DNA from: Pseudorhodobacter sp. MZDSW-24AT
GTDB lineage: Bacteria; Pseudomonadota; Alphaproteobacteria; Rhodobacterales; Rhodobacteraceae
DNA length: 64,000 nt
Assembly: GCF_002794355.1 (NCBI RefSeq)
Contig: NZ_PGOI01000007.1
Span: 372,001-436,000 of the forward strand
Direction: 5' to 3'
The notes under the pieces are model-generated. The model ran no database searches and had not been told where the DNA came from. It saw only the letters and a list, made by a program, of their open reading frames with translations. Positions 28,805 through 35,735 of the stretch are shown piece after piece (position 1 is the first letter of the stretch; each line of letters begins with the position of its first letter). The translations under genes were made by a program, and so were the position numbers.

Positions 28805-28826
28805 CACTTTTCCCCAGCAGGCAGCT

Positions 28827-28847
28827 ATACGGGTTATTTATCTGTAT
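28827..28847. promoter_or_regulatory. ATAC-N13-GTAT dyad near the LysR start
   Basis: A short interrupted dyad, ATAC (28827-28830) and GTAT (28844-28847), lies 23 bases upstream of the LysR gene in AT-rich DNA. LysR proteins bind such T-N11-A-type dyads close to their own promoter. The arms are only four bases, so this is tentative. Confidence 0.25.
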
Positions 28848-29028
28848 TGATCCTGAAATCGGGCAGGAACGCGGCACTCCTGCGTTCTATCCGGGGAATT
28901 CCGGCGGATCGTTTAGAAAAGAGAAACGTGAGCAGCGGGCGTTTGTTCCCGATTTGCTTAAAGATTGCACAGTGTTAACCTAGTGGCGTGGGTTTTGGGC
29001 GACATTGTGGCAACAATCGTGCAATACA

Positions 29029-29044
29029 GGTCTGGGACCAGACC
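29029..29044. promoter_or_regulatory. Palindrome GGTCTGG-GA-CCAGACC upstream of the transglutaminase cluster
   Basis: A perfect 7+7 palindrome with a 2-base centre at 29029-29044, 51 bases before the start of the first transglutaminase gene. A third half-site CCAGACC recurs at 29071-29077. The spacing and symmetry suit a dimeric regulator. No known family consensus is matched. Confidence 0.45.
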
Positions 29045-29094
29045 CGTGCGGCGCCTGATGTTATTCAGGGCCAGACCTTACGAGAAGTAAAAGC

Positions 29095-32000
29095 ATGTCG
29101 ATCAAGGCCGCGATTCACCACCTGACGCATTACAAATACGACCGGCCCGTGGTGCTGGGGCCGCAGGTCATCCGCTTGCGCCCTGCCCCACACAGCCGCA
29201 CGCGGGTGATTTCGCATGCGCTCAAGGTCAGTCCCGGCGGGCATTTCGTGAACCATCAGCAGGACCCGTTCGGCAACTGGCTGGCGCGGTTCGTGTTTCC
29301 TGAACCCGTGACCGAGTTCAAGATCGAGGTCGATCTTGTGGCCGACATGACGGTCTATAACCCGTTCGATTTCTTTGTAGAGGAATCGGCAGAGCATTGG
29401 CCGTTCGAATATCCAGTGGATCTGGTCGAGGATCTGGAGATCTATCGCCGCAAGGACCCGGCGGGTCCGCTGTTGCAGGCGTTTCTGGAAACAGTACCCA
29501 AAGACCGGGTGCGCAGCGTGGATTTCGTGGTGAACCTGAACGCGCAGGTGGCAAATACGCTGCGCTACACCATTCGGATGGAGCCGGGGGTGCAGACGCC
29601 CGAGGAAACACTGGGGGTGCAAAGCGGGTCGTGCCGGGATTCCAGCTGGCTGTTGGTGCAGGCGCTGCGGCACTTCGGCTTCGCGGCGCGGTTTGTGTCG
29701 GGCTATCTGATCCAGCTGAAACCGGATCTGAAGGCGCTGGACGGGCCTTCGGGCACCGAGGTGGATTTCACAGATTTGCATGCGTGGTGCGAGGTCTATC
29801 TGCCGGGCGCGGGCTGGGTGGGGCTTGATCCGACCAGTGGGCTGCTGGCGGGGGAGAGCCATATTCCGCTGGCCGCCACCCCGCATTACCGCAATGCGGC
29901 GCCGATTTCGGGCATGGCGAGCTTTGCCGAGGTGGATTTCGCCTTTGACATGACGGTGGCGCGGGTGGCGGAGCATCCGCGGATCACCAAGCCGTTCAGC
30001 GATGCCGCATGGGATGAGTTGAACGCGCTGGGGCAGAAGGTGGATGCCGCGCTGGAGGCGGGCGATGTGCGGCTGACCATGGGCGGTGAGCCAACCTTTG
30101 TGTCCATCGACGACTTTGAGGCGGATGAGTGGAACACCGCTGCCGTGGGGCCGACGAAGCGGGTGCTGGCCGACAGGCTGATCCGCCGCTTGCGCGACCG
30201 TTTCGCGCCGGGGGGGTTTTTGCATTATGGGCAGGGCAAGTGGTATCCGGGCGAGACGCTGCCGCGTTGGACGTTCTCGCTCTATTGGCGGGCCGACGGG
30301 CATCCGATCTGGCAGGACCCAAGTCTGATTGCCGAAGAAGGGGCCAAGACCGGCGCCACGACCGAGGATGCCGAACGTCTGTTGCAGCAGATGGCGCAGG
30401 ATCTGGCGCTGGAGCCGGAGTGCATTTTGCCCGCCTATGAAGACCCGGCGCAGTGGCTGGTGAAAGAGGCCAACCTGCCCGACAATGTGACGCCCGCCAA
30501 TTCCAAGCTGAAAGACCCGGAAGAGCGGCATCGTCTGGCCACCGTGTTCAATCGCGGGCTGACCCATCCTTCGGGCTTTGTCCTGCCGGTGCAAAGCTGG
30601 CAAAGCCGCGCGTCGGGGCGGAAGTGGCGCACGGAAAAGTGGCGGCTGCGGCGGGGGCATATGTTCCTTGTGCCCGGGGACAGCCCGGTGGGCTATCGCT
30701 TGCCGCTGGAAAGCCTGCCATGGCTGCCTGCGTCGCAATATCCCTATATCAACCCGGTGGACCCGACAGTGGAGCGCCCGCCCCTGCCGGTGCCGGAAGC
30801 AGGGCCTTTGAGCCCGGAGGTGACGGAGTCGCGCCCCCAAGGGTCGGCCAGTTTCACGGCCAGCGGGGCGCAGGGCGCGCAGGTGGAACAGGGCTCGCCC
30901 GTGTTCGAGGTGGATGGCCATATCCGCACCGCCCTGTCGGTGGAACCGCGCGATGGGCGGCTGTGCGTGTTCATGCCGCCGGTGGTGTCGGTGGAGGATT
31001 ACCTTGATCTGGTGCGCGCGGCAGAGGATGCCGCCCGGAAACTGGGGTTGCAGGTGCATATCGAAGGCTATGCGCCGCCGCATGACCCGCGCCTGAACGT
31101 GATCCGCGTGGCCCCCGATCCGGGGGTGATCGAGGTGAACGTGCATCCGGCGCAGAATTGGCAGGACTGCGTGGATATCACGAGCGCGGTCTATGAGGAG
31201 GCGCGCTTGTGCCGCCTTGGGGCCGACAAGTTCATGATCGACGGCACGCACGCCGGCACGGGGGGCGGCAACCATGTGGTGGTTGGCGGCGCGACCCCGA
31301 ATGACAGCCCCTTCCTGCGGCGGCCAGACCTTTTGCGCAGTCTGATTTTGCATTGGAACCGGCACCCGTCGCTGTCTTACCTGTTTTCGGGGCTGTTCAT
31401 CGGGCCAACCTCGCAAGCGCCCCGGATCGATGAGGCGCGGCATGATGCGCTGTATGAGATGGAGATCGCGCTGGCGCAGATCCCGGCCCCCGGCGAAGGC
31501 ACCCCGCCGATGCCATGGCTGGTGGACCGGTTGCTGCGCAACATGCTGACCGATGTGACGGGCAACACCCACCGGGCCGAGATCTGCATCGACAAGCTGT
31601 ATTCCCCCGACGGGCCGACGGGGCGGTTGGGCTTGGTGGAGTTCCGCGGGTTCGAGATGCCGCCGGATGCGCGGATGAGCCTGTCGCAGCAATTGCTGAT
31701 CCGGGCGCTGATCGCGCGATTCTGGGCCAACCCGGCCAAGGGCGAGTTGACGCGCTGGGGCACGGCTTTGCATGACCGTTTCATGCTGCCGCATCACGTC
31801 TGGCAGGATTTCCGCGATGTGCTGGCCGATCTGGCGCAGCACGGCTTCCCCTTGCGCGAGGAGTGGTTCGAGGCACAGGCCGAGTTCCGGTTCCCGTTCT
31901 GCGGTGAGGTGGCCTATGAGGGCGTGCATCTGGAGCTGCGTCAGGCGCTGGAGCCGTGGCATGTGCTGGGCGAGACGGGGGCGATTGGCGGCACGGTGCG

Positions 32001-32439
32001 CTATACCGACAGTTCCACCGAACGCTTGCAGGTGAAGCTGACAGCCGCCGATCCGTCGCGCTATCAGGTGCTGTGCAACGGGCGCGTTGCGCCGCTGACG
32101 GCGGTGGGCGGCGGTGAGGCGGTGGCGGGCGTGCGCTACAAGGCGTGGCAGCCGTCTTCGGCGATGCACCCGGTGTTGCCGGTGGATGCGCCGCTGACCT
32201 TTGACATTTTCGACACATGGTCGGGGCGGCCCTTGGGCGGCTGTGTGTATCATGTGGCCCATCCGGGCGGGCGGAATTACGACACCTTCCCGGTGAACGG
32301 CAACGAGGCCGAGGCGCGGCGGCTGGCGCGGTTTGAACCCAACGGACACCGTCCGGGGCATATGATGCGGCCCATGGCCGAACGCCCGCACCGGGAGTTT
32401 CCGCTGACGCTTGACCTGCGGCGGCCCATCGGGCTCTAG
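29095..32439 (+). CDS. Transglutaminase-like domain fused to DUF2126 (putative amidoligase)
   Basis: A 1114-residue, probably cytoplasmic protein with no signal peptide. Residues 1-290 are a bacterial transglutaminase-like domain (N-terminal beta region then the papain-like core) with the complete triad: Cys180 (SGSCRDSSW), His229 ([11 protein letters not shown]) and Asp245 (GLDPTSG). From about residue 300 to the end is DUF2126, a family classed as a putative amidoligase (COOH-NH2 ligase), seen in [20 protein letters not shown], the [17 protein letters not shown] core and [19 protein letters not shown]. It is first of three genes with a circularly permuted ATP-grasp/alpha-E fusion and a second transglutaminase. 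Such neighbourhoods are predicted to make or modify peptides. Product and substrate are unknown. Confidence 0.88.
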
Positions 32440-32445
32440 TCCCCC

Positions 32446-34854
32446 ATGGACAGCACAGCCGGAGCACAGGGCGCAGCCGACGGACCCGGCAAACCGCGGG
32501 ATCGCGGGCTGTCGGCCTATCGCGCCTTGCCGGGGGTGCCGGATGAGCTGGTCACGCCCGAGGGGCGGCTGCGCCCCCTGTGGGACCCGCTGATCGCGCA
32601 TCTGCAAGGGCTGTCGGATGATGCGTTGACCCGCGCCACCGGGCGGGCCGACCAATACCTGCGCGATTCCGGGGTGTTTTACCGCCAGTATGGGTCGGGC
32701 CAGTCGGTCGAGCGGCCTTGGCCGCTGAGCCATGTGCCGGTGCTGATCGACGAGGCCGATTGGGCCGAGCTGACCCCGGCGCTGATCCAGCGGGCCGATC
32801 TGCTGGAAGCGGTGATGGCCGATCTGTATGGCGAGAACCGGCTGGTGGCCGAAGGGCATTTGCCGCCATCGCTGGTGGCGGGCAACCCCGAGTGGCTGCG
32901 GCCTTTGGTGGGGGTGCGCCCGGCATCGGGGCATTTCCTGCATTTTCTGGCCTTTGAGATCGGGCGCGGGCCGGATGGCCGCTGGTGGGTGCTGGCCGAC
33001 CGCACGCAAGCGCCTTCGGGCGCGGGCTATGCGCTGGAAAACCGGGTGGCCACGTCGCGCGCCTATGCCGAGGTGTTTGACGGGCTGAACGTGCATCGGC
33101 TGGCCGGGTTCTTCCGCGATTTCCGCGATGGCCTGCTGGGCCTGCGCGATCCGCGCGATGGGCGGGTGGCCATTCTGACGCCGGGGCCGCTGAACGAGAC
33201 CTATTTCGAACAGGCGTGGATCGCGCGCTATCTGGGTGTCAGCCTTGTGCAAGGCGAAGATCTGACCGTTTCCGACGGGCGGTTGATGGTGCGCACGATT
33301 TCGGGGCTGCGCCCCTTGGATGTGCTGTGGCGGCGGTTGGATGGCAGCTATGCCGACCCGCTGGAGCTGAACCCCGCATCGCGGATCGGCACGCCGGGGC
33401 TGGTGTCGGTGCTGCGCCAAGGCGGGCTGACCATGGTGAACTCGTTGGGGTCGGGTGTGCTGGAGACGCGGGCGCTGATGGCGTTCTTGCCGAACCTCGC
33501 ACGGCATCTGACGGGGGCTGCGCTGGCGATGCCCAATATTGCGACATGGTGGTGTGGCGGCGCGGCTGAACGGGCGCAGGTGATGGCGGCGCAGGACAGG
33601 CTGGTGCTGTCGCCCGCGCTGGGCACCGGTCTGCCCTTTGATCGCCAAGGCGAAAGCACCGCCACCGCCACGCTGACACCGGCGGCGCTGGCAGCACGGC
33701 TGGCCGCCGATGGCGCAGATCTGGTCGCGCAAGAGGCGGTAACGCTGTCAACGACGCCCGCGCTGATCGACGGGCAGATCGTGCCACGTCCGATGAGCCT
33801 GCGGGTGTTCCTTGCGCGCACGCCGGGCGGCTGGCAGGTGATGCAGGGCGGTTTCGCGCGGATCGGCGCGTCGGAAGATCCGACCGCACTGGCGATGCAG
33901 CGCGGCGGCAGCGCGGCGGATGTGTGGATCGTCAGCAAGGACGAGGTGCCCGCCGTCAGCATGGTGGCCGCCAGTGGACCCTATCGCCGGGCCACTCCCG
34001 GAGCGCTTCCGGCGCGGGCGGCGGACAACCTGTTCTGGCTGGGCCGCTATGTCGAGCGCACAGAAGGGCTAATCCGGCTTTTGCGCGCGCGTCACATCCG
34101 GCTGGCCGAAGGCGGGCGCGCGGCCTTGCCGCTGCAAAAGCAGATGGATGCGCTGCTGGCCAGTTATGATGTGGATGGCGCGGTGGGCCTGTCGCCGGGG
34201 CTTCTCGACACGCTGGGCGCGGCGGTGGCGACGGCGGGTCAGGTGCGCGACCGGTTCTCGCCCGATGGCTGGTCGGCGCTGAACGATCTGGACAAGAGCG
34301 CGCGGCGGCTGGCGGGCAAGGTGGCCCCCGGCGATGATGCCGCCCGGGCGCTTTCGGCGCTGCTGCGCAAGCTGGCGGGGTTTTCCGGGCTGGTGCATGA
34401 AAACATGTATCGCTTTTTCGGCTGGCGGTTCCTGTCCATCGGGCGTCAGTTGGAACGCGGGTCAGCCATGTCGGGGGTGCTGGCGGCTTTTGCCGATGCC
34501 AAGGCTCCGGCGGGGAGTCTGGACCTTTGCATCGAGCTGGGCGACAGCGTGCTGACGCATCGCCGCCGCTTCAGCGTGGGGTCGTCGCGCGAAACGGTGA
34601 TCGACCTTTTGGCGCTGGACCCGATGAACCCGCGGTCGCTGCGGCATCTGATCGACGCGCTGAGCGAACAGGTGCAGGCGCTGCCGGGCGCGGCCACGCA
34701 TGGGCAGCTGTCGGATCTGGGGCGCGCGATGCTGCGCACGCAGGTGGAGATTGCCACCGCCACACCCGAGTCTCTGACGACCCAAGGCTTGCAGGATCTG
34801 CGCGGGGCCTTGGCCGGGATTTCCGACCTGCTGACCGAGGCCTATCTGCGGTGA
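32446..34854 (+). CDS. Circularly permuted ATP-grasp protein fused to an alpha-E domain
   Basis: An 802-residue protein joining two families usually encoded separately. Residues about 15-500 are a circularly permuted ATP-grasp type 2 ligase (DUF404/DUF407), with DSGVFYRQYGSGQSVERPWPL, ANPEWLRPLVG-like and LWRRLDGSYADPLEL segments. From about residue 515 to the end is an alpha-E (DUF403) helical domain opening with RAADNLFWLGRYVERTEGL. The ATP-grasp part should form an amide or peptide bond using ATP; alpha-E is thought to be an accessory domain. The start follows the DUF2126 gene by six bases, and the stop overlaps the next transglutaminase GTG by four. The fusion itself supports a physical partnership. 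Confidence 0.87.
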   Translation: MDSTAGAQGAADGPGKPRDRGLSAYRALPGVPDELVTPEGRLRPLWDPLIAHLQGLSDDALTRATGRADQYLRDSGVFYRQYGSGQSVERPWPLSHVPVLIDEADWAELTPALIQRADLLEAVMADLYGENRLVAEGHLPPSLVAGNPEWLRPLVGVRPASGHFLHFLAFEIGRGPDGRWWVLADRTQAPSGAGYALENRVATSRAYAEVFDGLNVHRLAGFFRDFRDGLLGLRDPRDGRVAILTPGPLNETYFEQAWIARYLGVSLVQGEDLTVSDGRLMVRTISGLRPLDVLWRRLDGSYADPLELNPASRIGTPGLVSVLRQGGLTMVNSLGSGVLETRALMAFLPNLARHLTGAALAMPNIATWWCGGAAERAQVMAAQDRLVLSPALGTGLPFDRQGESTATATLTPAALAARLAADGADLVAQEAVTLSTTPALIDGQIVPRPMSLRVFLARTPGGWQVMQGGFARIGASEDPTALAMQRGGSAADVWIVSKDEVPAVSMVAASGPYRRATPGALPARAADNLFWLGRYVERTEGLIRLLRARHIRLAEGGRAALPLQKQMDALLASYDVDGAVGLSPGLLDTLGAAVATAGQVRDRFSPDGWSALNDLDKSARRLAGKVAPGDDAARALSALLRKLAGFSGLVHENMYRFFGWRFLSIGRQLERGSAMSGVLAAFADAKAPAGSLDLCIELGDSVLTHRRRFSVGSSRETVIDLLALDPMNPRSLRHLIDALSEQVQALPGAATHGQLSDLGRAMLRTQVEIATATPESLTTQGLQDLRGALAGISDLLTEAYLR

Positions 34855-35735
34855 CCCTTTACGCGCTGCGCCAGACCATCCGCTACACGTTCAACCGGCC
34901 CAGCGGGGCGGGGCGGCAGCTGTTTCGCGTGCTTCCGGCCGATCTTCCGGGGCGGCAAACGGTGCGCGAGGCCCGCTATGCCTTTGCGCCGGACATGGCC
35001 GAACATGGCGCTTTCACGGATTTCTTCGGCACACGGGTGATCGAGGCGGCGATGTCGCCGGGGCTGACCCGGCTGGACCTGACGCTGGAGGCGGTGGTGG
35101 AGCGGTTGGCGGACAGCGAAGGGCCGGACCTGTCGCCCCCTTTGGAGCGGCTGGGGGCCGCGCTCGCGGCGCAGCGCGATGTGGGGCCGCGCGCGCCGCA
35201 TCATTTCACGCGGGCGTCGCGCCGGATTGCCGCCGCGCCTGCGATTGCCGCCTTTGCCCGGGCGCAAACCGCGCCGGGCCAGACGGTGCGCAGCTGCGTT
35301 CAGGCGCTGGGGCAGGCCTTGCATGCGCGGATGGTGTTTGACGCCAAGGCCACGCAGGTGGACACCGCGCCCGAGGCGGCCTTTGCGCTGGGGCGCGGGG
35401 TCTGTCAGGATTTCGCGCAGATCATGGTGGGCGGATTGCGCAGCCTAGGGGTGCCCGCGGCCTATGTTGCGGGCTATCTGCGCACCTTGCCGCCGCCGGG
35501 CAAACCCCGGCTGGTGGGGGCGGATGCCATGCATGCTTGGGTGCGGGCTTGGGCGGGGGAAGAGATGGGCTGGGTCGATTACGACCCGACCAACGCCTGT
35601 TTTGCCGGGACGGACCACATCGACGTCGGCTTTGGCCGCGATTATGACGATGTGGCCCCGGTGACCGGCTGGCTGCGGCTGGACGGACAACAGTCCGGCA
35701 GCCACAGCGTCGATATCCAATCAATCGGCCCTTAG
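34851..35735 (+). CDS. Transglutaminase-like cysteine protease-fold protein
   Basis: A 294-residue protein with an N-terminal transglutaminase-associated beta domain (residues 1-85, opening TLYALRQTIRYTF) and a papain-like core. The catalytic triad is Cys185 (GRGVCQDFAQIM), His228 (MHAWVRAW) and Asp245 (WVDYDPTNAC). It starts at a GTG (34851) whose bases overlap the stop of the ATP-grasp gene (GTGA). No signal peptide is seen, so it acts in the cytoplasm with the two upstream products. A peptidase or amide-transfer role on the ligase product is the usual prediction for this trio. It converges on the aldehyde dehydrogenase gene with a 4-base overlap. Confidence 0.88.
   Translation: MTLYALRQTIRYTFNRPSGAGRQLFRVLPADLPGRQTVREARYAFAPDMAEHGAFTDFFGTRVIEAAMSPGLTRLDLTLEAVVERLADSEGPDLSPPLERLGAALAAQRDVGPRAPHHFTRASRRIAAAPAIAAFARAQTAPGQTVRSCVQALGQALHARMVFDAKATQVDTAPEAAFALGRGVCQDFAQIMVGGLRSLGVPAAYVAGYLRTLPPPGKPRLVGADAMHAWVRAWAGEEMGWVDYDPTNACFAGTDHIDVGFGRDYDDVAPVTGWLRLDGQQSGSHSVDIQSIGP

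Follow-up and report, generated by a model that had tools for sequence, protein, structure and literature searches.

We consider it somewhat probable that the three genes located at positions 29095-35735 of the window (i.e. the 64,000-nucleotide stretch of Pseudorhodobacter sp. MZDSW-24AT analysed here), which encode a transglutaminase-DUF2126 protein, an alpha-E fusion with a permuted ATP-grasp and another transglutaminase, constitute the DUF2126 module of the amide-ligase system predicted around Anbu and alpha-E, operating within a two-amide route that we propose below. As judged by sequence, the locus would hold one ligase candidate (DUF2126), and the existence of two is not supported, since the ATP-grasp of gene 2 is devoid of the Mg-binding Asn and of the phosphate loop.

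Genes and gene order of the locus

All three genes are encoded on the forward (+) strand. Gene 1 (29095..32439, 1114 aa; Pfam Bact_transglu_N, Transglut_core and DUF2126) comprises a Transglut_core domain (PF01841, residues 143-246, 29521..29832) with the triad C180/H229/D245, and the DUF2126 domain (PF09899, 1327.5 bits, residues 278-1109, 29926..32421), a candidate ligase of glutamine-synthetase (GS) fold. Gene 2 (32446..34854, 802 aa; CP_ATPgrasp_2 428.7 bits, CP_ATPgrasp_1 256, Alpha-E 176.2) encodes a degenerate circularly permuted (CP) ATP-grasp domain (residues 98-473, 32737..33864), predicted to be catalytically dead, which is fused to an alpha-E domain (residues 521-801, 34006..34848) that keeps both of its Glu-Arg motifs (E537-R538 and E670-R671). 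Gene 3 (34851..35735, 294 aa; Transglut_core and Bact_transglu_N) is the second transglutaminase (triad C185/H228/D245); the ORF listing holds a longer alternative with a TTG start at 34527, and the start was set at the GTG of 34851 because it agrees with the start of the domain. An antisense ORF (29065-33732, 1555 aa) overlying genes 1 and 2 was taken as a shadow frame. The three-gene cluster claimed by the original prediction was thus recovered with its six-base and overlapping junctions (6-bp gap between genes 1 and 2, 4-bp overlap between genes 2 and 3). Among the 80 loci retrieved from named genomes, 70 keep the order 1-2-3 on one strand (as does L070 of Sinorhizobium fredii, which carries the trio), more than chance would give; the exceptions are five loci in which the end of the contig was reached (L077, L080, L083, L105 and L110) and five in which gene 1 lacks adjoining genes 2 and 3 (L071, L084, L100, L118 and L122).

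The two papain-fold enzymes that had been postulated, together with their triads, withstood comparison with relatives, among which the catalytic residues are almost invariant: C180, H229 and D245 of gene 1 are found in 119/120, 120/120 and 119/120 sequences (window included), while C185, H228 and D245 of gene 3 are present in 109/109, 109/109 and 108/109 (the remaining row being a gap). We are aware of neither an enzymatic activity nor a product of DUF2126, of alpha-E or of the transglutaminases in question and, in agreement with the earlier statement, no product turned up in the literature searched.

Apparent loss of the ATP-grasp active site in gene 2

The ATP-grasp of gene 2 has a solved homologue (3n6x, E 4e-66) and seems, from its residues, to have kept the shape of a ligase and to have lost the ATP/Mg active site: A184/R186 occupy the place of the expected Glu-x-Asn, S389 that of the expected Lys, and the GGYG loop is gapped. 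This erosion extends to the fused copies in general (n=106 distinct, the window plus 105), in which Asn158 is never found (0/106), an acid at 156 occurs in 5/106 and Lys/Arg at 364 in 18/106, with no copy holding Glu, Asn and Lys all together (0/106); the phosphate-loop Tyr is likewise missing (0/106) and the loop is gapped in 101/106. By contrast, the 24 stand-alone ATP-grasp copies examined have Glu and Asn in 23/24 (one row gapped) and Lys and the loop in 24/24, and the tree splits fused from stand-alone copies cleanly (support 1.0). One of the alignments (A2) took 98 of the 134 filtered locus sequences. The original prediction had assumed two distinct amide-bond ligases within the cluster, a view that finds no support as the ATP/Mg site of gene 2 is missing in 106/106 fused copies.

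It could be argued that gene 2 is alive by means of a rearranged ATP site, both ligases being active, given that Glu230 and Asp279 are invariant (106/106 fused copies) and that a Glu absent from the stand-alone copies stands at column 282 in 104/106. We regard this as very unlikely, as the glycine loop and the Mg-pair Asn have disappeared together from the fused copies, and the Lys from 88/106. The degenerate ATP-grasp, along with the lack of a conserved small ORF for a precursor peptide near the 121 loci screened, also speaks against a graspetide (RiPP) cluster.

DUF2126 and the glutamine-synthetase fold

The structural model of DUF2126 (residues 281-1114, pLDDT 82.9, pTM 0.87; an earlier gene-1 model built from 13 sequences, pLDDT 56.2, was discarded) weakly resembles the glutamine-synthetase fold. 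Of the 418 PDB matches at E up to 10, the 50 listed belong without exception to the GS fold, although they are weak (best E 1.3e-3, target TM-score <=0.37 among the matches listed), and several phage 'amidoligase' models figure among the best matches to viral structures. The likeness to GS, GmaS, YbdK and Dop thus resides in the fold of the listed matches, whereas no sequence or profile similarity of these enzymes to DUF2126 was found: a profile search of PDB sequences with DUF2126 returned no match at E up to 10, and hhalign against glutamine synthetase (profile of 22 sequences out of 30 fetched loci) gave a probability of 0.24%, a null result that is weak either way because both alignments are shallow (Neff 2.5 and 2.1). 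The modelled stretch also differs in size (834 residues vs 352-477 for the named GS-fold chains listed). H727 and E849 are invariant within the DUF2126 domain. The fold match of this model supports the more general proposal that the locus forms amide bonds and includes a ligase candidate. DUF2126, COG4307 and PF15887 were not found to be mentioned in the literature searched, in which the name Peptidase_Mx occurs in one paper.

Relation to the Anbu operon and the stand-alone ATP-grasp

A peptide-synthesis system made up of Anbu, alpha-E, CP ATP-grasp and transglutaminase, and including a permuted GS-like ligase (which we take to be DUF2126), was reportedly predicted by Iyer et al. 2009. The relation of the trio to such neighbourhoods holds, as both share the same domain families (CP ATP-grasp, alpha-E and transglutaminase) and the same genome holds, on a different contig, a complete operon of ATP-grasp, alpha-E, transglutaminase and Anbu. 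The window locus departs from that system by being without Anbu, by having DUF2126 and two transglutaminases, and by the fusion of its alpha-E to an ATP-grasp without active site. The predicted Anbu/alpha-E system is cited in PMC5666114 and PMC6376114. The ATP-grasp of the Anbu operon in this genome (CP_ATPgrasp_2 553.8 bits) has its residues in place, and its Anbu contains T1/D17/K32 (counted on the sequence; residues named per PMC6376114). As the genome-wide search for Anbu yielded one match, located in that operon, and none was obtained within the 26.6-kb window slice surrounding the trio, the earlier claim of an absent Anbu is true of the locus and false of the genome. According to PMC6376114, the ATP-grasp from the Y. 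bercovieri Anbu operon frees phosphate from ATP, and the tests recorded there saw neither a complex among the Anbu-operon proteins nor Anbu peptidase activity.

Within the Pseudomonadota sampled, DUF2126 was detected in 84/299 genomes (split matches included) and alpha-E in 156/299. Every DUF2126-bearing genome (84/84) also has a match of the stand-alone ATP-grasp type (E <= 1.3e-140), as compared to 4.3e-100 (331.6 bits) for the best of the fused copies (n=106, local phmmer, on another E scale); the joint presence of DUF2126 and alpha-E in 84/84 is partly trivial, since gene 2 itself carries alpha-E. Anbu is present in only 51 of the 84, and among alpha-E-bearing genomes DUF2126 and Anbu are unassociated (51/33/50/22, p = 0.31, kinship ignored), from which it follows that Anbu is dispensable to the trio. 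In 40 loci picked non-randomly from these 84 genomes (for diversity and size of contig; 12 in the class of the window), the stand-alone ATP-grasp shares a stretch of ~20 kb with gene 1 in 22, i.e. in 21/28 outside the class of the window and in 1/12 inside it. An entire Anbu operon adjoins the trio in L060 and L172; of the 80 loci from named genomes (flanks of 10 kb at most), only 1 shows this arrangement.

The intact triads of both transglutaminases would also suit a hydrolytic nitrogen salvage, in which these enzymes deamidate protein Gln/Asn, freeing ammonia, and DUF2126 acts as a hydrolase; ammonia release by transglutaminase has already been suggested (PMC6376114), and isopeptides are hydrolysed by Dop, itself of GS fold (PMC8223512). 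We rate such a purely hydrolytic role as decidedly unlikely, given that the ATP site is intact in the stand-alone ATP-grasp and that a relative consumes ATP (PMC6376114), which would be superfluous for it.

Nitrogen control

In Burkholderia, a cluster of DUF404-407, DUF403, a transglutaminase and a large transglutaminase protein is NtrC- and sigma54-dependent (PMC5491218). This B. cenocepacia cluster (I35_5080-83) resembles the trio in its DUF404/DUF407 (ATP-grasp), DUF403 (alpha-E), transglutaminase and large transglutaminase-domain protein, and differs from it in that ATP-grasp and alpha-E are separate genes, which the trio fuses (PMC5491218). The expression of P. putida PP_2685-2688 is up when nitrogen supply is poor (PMC8050072, PMC7801951); as a reporter the PP_2685 promoter was nitrogen-agnostic (PMC8050072), and PP_2685 itself was barely up (1.12) in one wild-type data set of PMC7801951. 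Among our loci, sigma54-like sites were found upstream of the stand-alone ATP-grasp in 9/22 (vs 0.04 expected from single-base shuffles), while 116/121 gene-1 upstream regions have none. Neither operon of this genome is preceded by such a site, and NtrC/sigma54 control of the window trio was rejected, no sigma54-type site being found in the upstream region (28808..29094, + strand) and ten aligned regions showing no clear motif by eye.

Neighbouring genes and small ORFs

The families clustered near 81 loci revealed Peptidase_Mx (a zinc metallopeptidase) as a recurrent further partner of the system, which we retain because it is close to the trio in 10 loci, in several genera and on either side; the count in 41 relatives includes G001, which matches only the zinc-ribbon part, and that of the phylum search includes the partial matches G239, G256 and G326. 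In 14 loci, which are of Rhizobium type only as judged by titles, the trio is followed by a Tad/VWA protein; an acyl-CoA dehydrogenase recurs in 9 loci and a solute-binding protein of the peptide type in 6, both in mixed positions. The LysR gene upstream of the window trio has a similar counterpart (C-terminal residues compared) only in L067. Anti-phage defence was rejected, as PADLOC gave one stray match on six proteins (12.9 bits, E 0.007).

The system might alternatively yield a small diffusible compound, either a peptide or a gamma-glutamyl metabolite, that is not destined for a protein and serves e.g. to store or scavenge nitrogen, a possibility that we hold as tentative. Its relatives are controlled by nitrogen limitation and accompanied by urea genes (PMC5491218, PMC3597751), several hydrolases would be able to recycle the product, the solute-binding protein mentioned above (SBP_bac_5) occurs in the fetched stretch of 6/81 loci, and a metagenome clone with ATP-grasp, alpha-E, transglutaminase and protease is listed as antinematode in a table row of PMC7764037. 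A transporter or export gene widely conserved close by is, however, missing: ABC ATPases are present in 38/81 loci, with only 6/58 of their ORFs within 1.5 kb.

The small substrate protein whose search had been advised was looked for near 121 loci: among 2702 small ORFs none was conserved, the clusters obtained (<=11 loci each) resemble shadow frames or synteny between close relatives, and GG[QE] ends were confined to two isolated ORFs, neither of them in the window. These results weigh upon the idea of protein tagging, whereby a short non-ribosomal peptide or isopeptide tag would be attached to targets that Anbu or Mx degrades or detags. We know of no tagged protein, and Anbu is lacking in many of the DUF2126-bearing genomes, as given above. 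On the other hand, tagging would find in the trio a candidate GS-fold ligase (the depupylase Dop being among the listed fold matches) and in the same genome the proteasome-like Anbu; moreover, relatives are expressed under nitrogen limitation, during which Mycobacterium smegmatis relies on pupylation (PMC8223512). On balance we consider tagging unlikely. One version of it, a Gram-negative counterpart of pupylation during nitrogen starvation (the stand-alone ATP-grasp/alpha-E pair building a short non-ribosomal tag, the GS-fold DUF2126 enzyme attaching it under a dead partner of the gene-2 type, Anbu/Mx removing or degrading it), appears to us highly doubtful: it has in common with actinobacterial pupylation the candidate GS-fold ligase, the proteasome-like peptidase in the genome and the nitrogen-limitation link of relatives, and differs from it by the lack of a Pup-like ORF near the loci and by having Anbu instead of the 20S proteasome.

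Proposed two-amide route

Returning to the DUF2126 module of the Anbu/alpha-E system, we propose that, when nitrogen is limiting, a carboxylate would be activated and a first amide formed by the ATP-grasp/alpha-E pair of the stand-alone type, and that DUF2126 would add a second one (gamma-glutamyl-type) through the acyl-phosphate route of glutamine synthetase. Gene 2 may serve as a non-catalytic partner that holds the substrate or docks both modules, the papain-fold enzymes could hydrolyse or transfer the acyl group via a Cys thioester, and Anbu and the zinc peptidase Mx (where present) might break the product down again.

The system is widespread in the Pseudomonadota sampled, its relatives respond to nitrogen, and the literature searched does not assign a product to it. 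The apparently dead ligase, the pairing of the trio with a stand-alone ATP-grasp and the metallopeptidase found with both turn what was a vague prediction into a testable one.

Organization and conservation of the trio

By open reading frame calls and coordinates, the trio is a compact plus-strand unit of three genes on contig C24 of a fragmented assembly (3.86 Mb in 26 contigs): gene 1 (29095-32439; Pfam transglutaminase and DUF2126), gene 2 (32446-34854; circularly permuted (CP) ATP-grasp and alpha-E) and gene 3 (34851-35735; transglutaminase). Since a LysR gene diverges from it upstream and a convergent aldehyde dehydrogenase gene downstream overlaps the final 4 bases of gene 3, these flanking gene directions suggest that the trio is probably its own transcription unit. 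A 1555-aa antisense open frame (29065-33732, minus strand), spanning genes 1 and 2 and longer than either, was read as a high-GC shadow frame.

A scan of genome contigs confirmed at least 593 relatives of gene 1, of which the best 80 (nearly all titled Alphaproteobacteria) were taken; the nearest named loci among them, at 79-80% identity to gene 1, were titled Rhodobacteraceae, Paracoccus, Rhodobacter and Tabrizicola. Within these best 80 of at least 593, the order 1-2-3 on a single strand recurred in 70 loci, a contig end was reached in five, and gene 1 lacked adjoining genes 2 and 3 in five (L071, L084, L100, L118 and L122), which constitute natural tests of the need for gene 2. Peptidase_Mx adjoins gene 1 in L084, L118 and L122. 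A further 40 loci, which we picked from DUF2126-bearing genomes and which divide between the window's own class (12) and other classes in the phylum (28), again contained the trio genes, with order and strand differing in some. Gene 2 was a single open frame including alpha-E in 106 of the 108 loci (window counted) having such a frame, the exceptions being L080 (contig end) and L126. A solute-binding protein cluster was seen in six stretches (L060, L093, L108, L109, L111 and L112, the member in L112 being SBP_bac_5), near gene 1 in some. Furthermore, at G036:C1:2106072-2106953, in a genome where DUF2126 has no match, an open frame of 833 aa includes alpha-E and adjoins a transglutaminase, so that the fused protein may also occur without gene 1.

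Active-site residues of the predicted ligases

In ATP-grasp enzymes generally, a Glu-x-Asn motif binds magnesium, a lysine binds phosphate and a loop covers ATP. One solved homologue of the gene 2 ATP-grasp was found (3n6x). We aligned 106 copies fused to alpha-E (window and 105 others) with 24 stand-alone copies (own and 23 others), and the two kinds formed two clean groups (support 1.0). The stand-alone signature (LEDN with Glu156 and Asn158, Lys364, GGYG loop) was nearly complete, with Glu and Asn kept in 23/24 (the remaining row being gapped there) and Lys and loop in 24/24. In contrast, no fused copy kept Asn158, 5/106 had an acid at position 156, 18/106 had Lys or Arg at 364, and the loop Tyr was present in none and gapped in 101; the window's gene 2 has A184, R186 and S389 at these positions. 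The position of the loop gap is sensitive to the alignment, whereas conserved flanks make the loss of Glu-x-Asn independent of it. We consider that the gene 2 ATP-grasp is degenerate and, by its residues, predicted to be catalytically dead. The original prediction had named loss of catalytic residues in homologues as evidence against it: such loss was found for the ATP-grasp (Glu, Asn and Lys jointly in 0/106 fused copies) and not for the two transglutaminases (genes 1 and 3), whose catalytic triads were retained nearly everywhere in the alignments. Its two distinct amide-bond ligases at the locus are thereby reduced to one candidate, DUF2126. Both Glu-Arg motifs of alpha-E are kept in fused and stand-alone kinds, and the fused alpha-E has lost several further positions nearly invariant in the stand-alone one. 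In gene 2 (alpha-E at 34006-34848) the surroundings of the two motifs resemble each other (residues 531-544 and 666-671), a hint that alpha-E may have arisen by internal duplication.

A model of DUF2126 built from 99 sequences (pLDDT 82.9, pTM 0.87) matched, among the 50 PDB entries listed of 418 (E up to 10), proteins titled as glutamine synthetases, GmaS, YbdK and Dop, all of which we take to be members of the glutamine synthetase (GS) fold. These listed matches were modest (best E 1.3e-3, low TM-scores), as a permuted or split fold would produce; several phage amidoligases were among the best viral matches. Sequence and profile searches between DUF2126 and known GS-fold enzymes gave no link. 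The invariant Glu, His and Arg residues of the domain alignment (e.g. E52, E400, H447, E569 and R571, domain numbering) would suit a GS-type site and are compatible with an active enzyme.

A second locus with Anbu, and a putative metallopeptidase partner

The proteasome-like peptidase Anbu, originally noted as absent here, is missing from the locus only: on a separate contig (C3) one operon combines CP ATP-grasp (553.8 bits) and alpha-E (305.1 bits) with a transglutaminase, a Pfam-less open frame and Anbu (PF00227, 29.8 bits against a cut-off of 22.4). By our count, this Anbu has all of T1, D17 and K32, the candidate catalytic residues named in PMC6376114. The Pfam-less 240-aa frame between transglutaminase and Anbu (L032:7040-7762, minus strand) ends in a hydrophobic stretch and may be an additional component or serve as a membrane tether.

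Across 299 sampled Pseudomonadota genomes, in counts that ignore kinship, the tallies were 84 for DUF2126, 156 for alpha-E, 102 for Anbu and 46 for Peptidase_Mx (Mx; a zinc ribbon and putative metallopeptidase). DUF2126 never occurred without alpha-E (0/84), which is partly trivial since gene 2 itself carries alpha-E, and Anbu did so once (1/102). All 84 DUF2126-bearing genomes had a stand-alone ATP-grasp match at E <= 1.3e-140 (active-site residues being compared in 24 stand-alone copies), the top fused copy of 106 reaching 4.3e-100 against the stand-alone query in a local run with a different E scale. Anbu was found in only 51/84 of these genomes and, within the alpha-E-bearing set, was not enriched in those with DUF2126 (p = 0.31), so the trio can do without it. 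Of the 40 picked loci, 22 had the stand-alone ATP-grasp and gene 1 in one stretch (21/28 outside the window's class, 1/12 inside), and five of these additionally held Anbu; in Pseudooceanicola pacificus (L060), the sole such case in the best 80 of at least 593, the trio and the entire Anbu operon point away from each other.

In 10/81 loci (best 80 and window), at most 1.5 kb separated Mx from gene 1 or the trio, and 7 of the 40 picked loci had Mx along the same stretch. Among 41 relatives, Mx was present in 15 (one, G001, a zinc-ribbon match alone), all within the 22 that bear DUF2126. In the 299-genome sample, alpha-E accompanied 45 of 46 Mx-bearing genomes (three being partial matches) versus 111/253 others (p = 2e-13), and at genus level 25/26 versus 65/128 (p = 5e-6). 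Mx adjoins Anbu operons in DUF2126-free genomes (L212, L213, L214) and a stand-alone ATP-grasp/alpha-E pair in L215; by our reading of coordinates, 13/46 genomes had it no more than 5 kb from a system gene (0.35 expected by rough estimate). Our genome has Mx on contig C25, HEVGH included.

Nitrogen control in relatives and overall reading

In PMC5491218, PMC8050072 and PMC7801951, relatives are NtrC/sigma54-dependent or raised under poor nitrogen supply; by contrast, the Pseudomonas putida PP_2685 promoter was nitrogen-agnostic in a reporter (PMC8050072), and PP_2685 was barely raised in one wild-type data set (PMC7801951). A computed sigma54-regulon survey names Anbu's COG (PMC12316311), and a marine metagenome study links the abundances of these domains with urea genes (PMC3597751). 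We found sigma54-like sites ahead of the stand-alone ATP-grasp in 9/22 loci (0.04 expected), ahead of gene 1 in only 5/121 (0.33 expected) and ahead of Mx in 0/17; our own trio and Anbu operon both lack one upstream. Taken together, the published data and site counts support nitrogen control for the relatives, and for our genome we only infer it.

Iyer et al. 2009 reportedly already put the system forward as a prediction. The predicted system of 2009 is cited in PMC5666114 and PMC6376114, and as a prediction it is already known; the open-licence literature searched yielded no mention of a dead ATP-grasp in the fused protein, of DUF2126 going together with the stand-alone ATP-grasp, or of the Mx link. 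One table row of PMC7764037 credits an antinematode metagenome clone (jj117) to ATP-grasp/alpha-E/transglutaminase/protease genes. A small metabolite and a protein tag are both possible product classes, and salvage is a possible role. Our chosen reading is an amide-bond system that is built of two modules and belongs to nitrogen limitation. The module in the window would combine DUF2126 as its one ligase candidate, the gene 2 ATP-grasp/alpha-E as a non-catalytic partner and two transglutaminases as acyl-transfer or hydrolase enzymes, and the other locus would contribute Anbu and an ATP-grasp that keeps its active site, along with a second alpha-E and a third transglutaminase.
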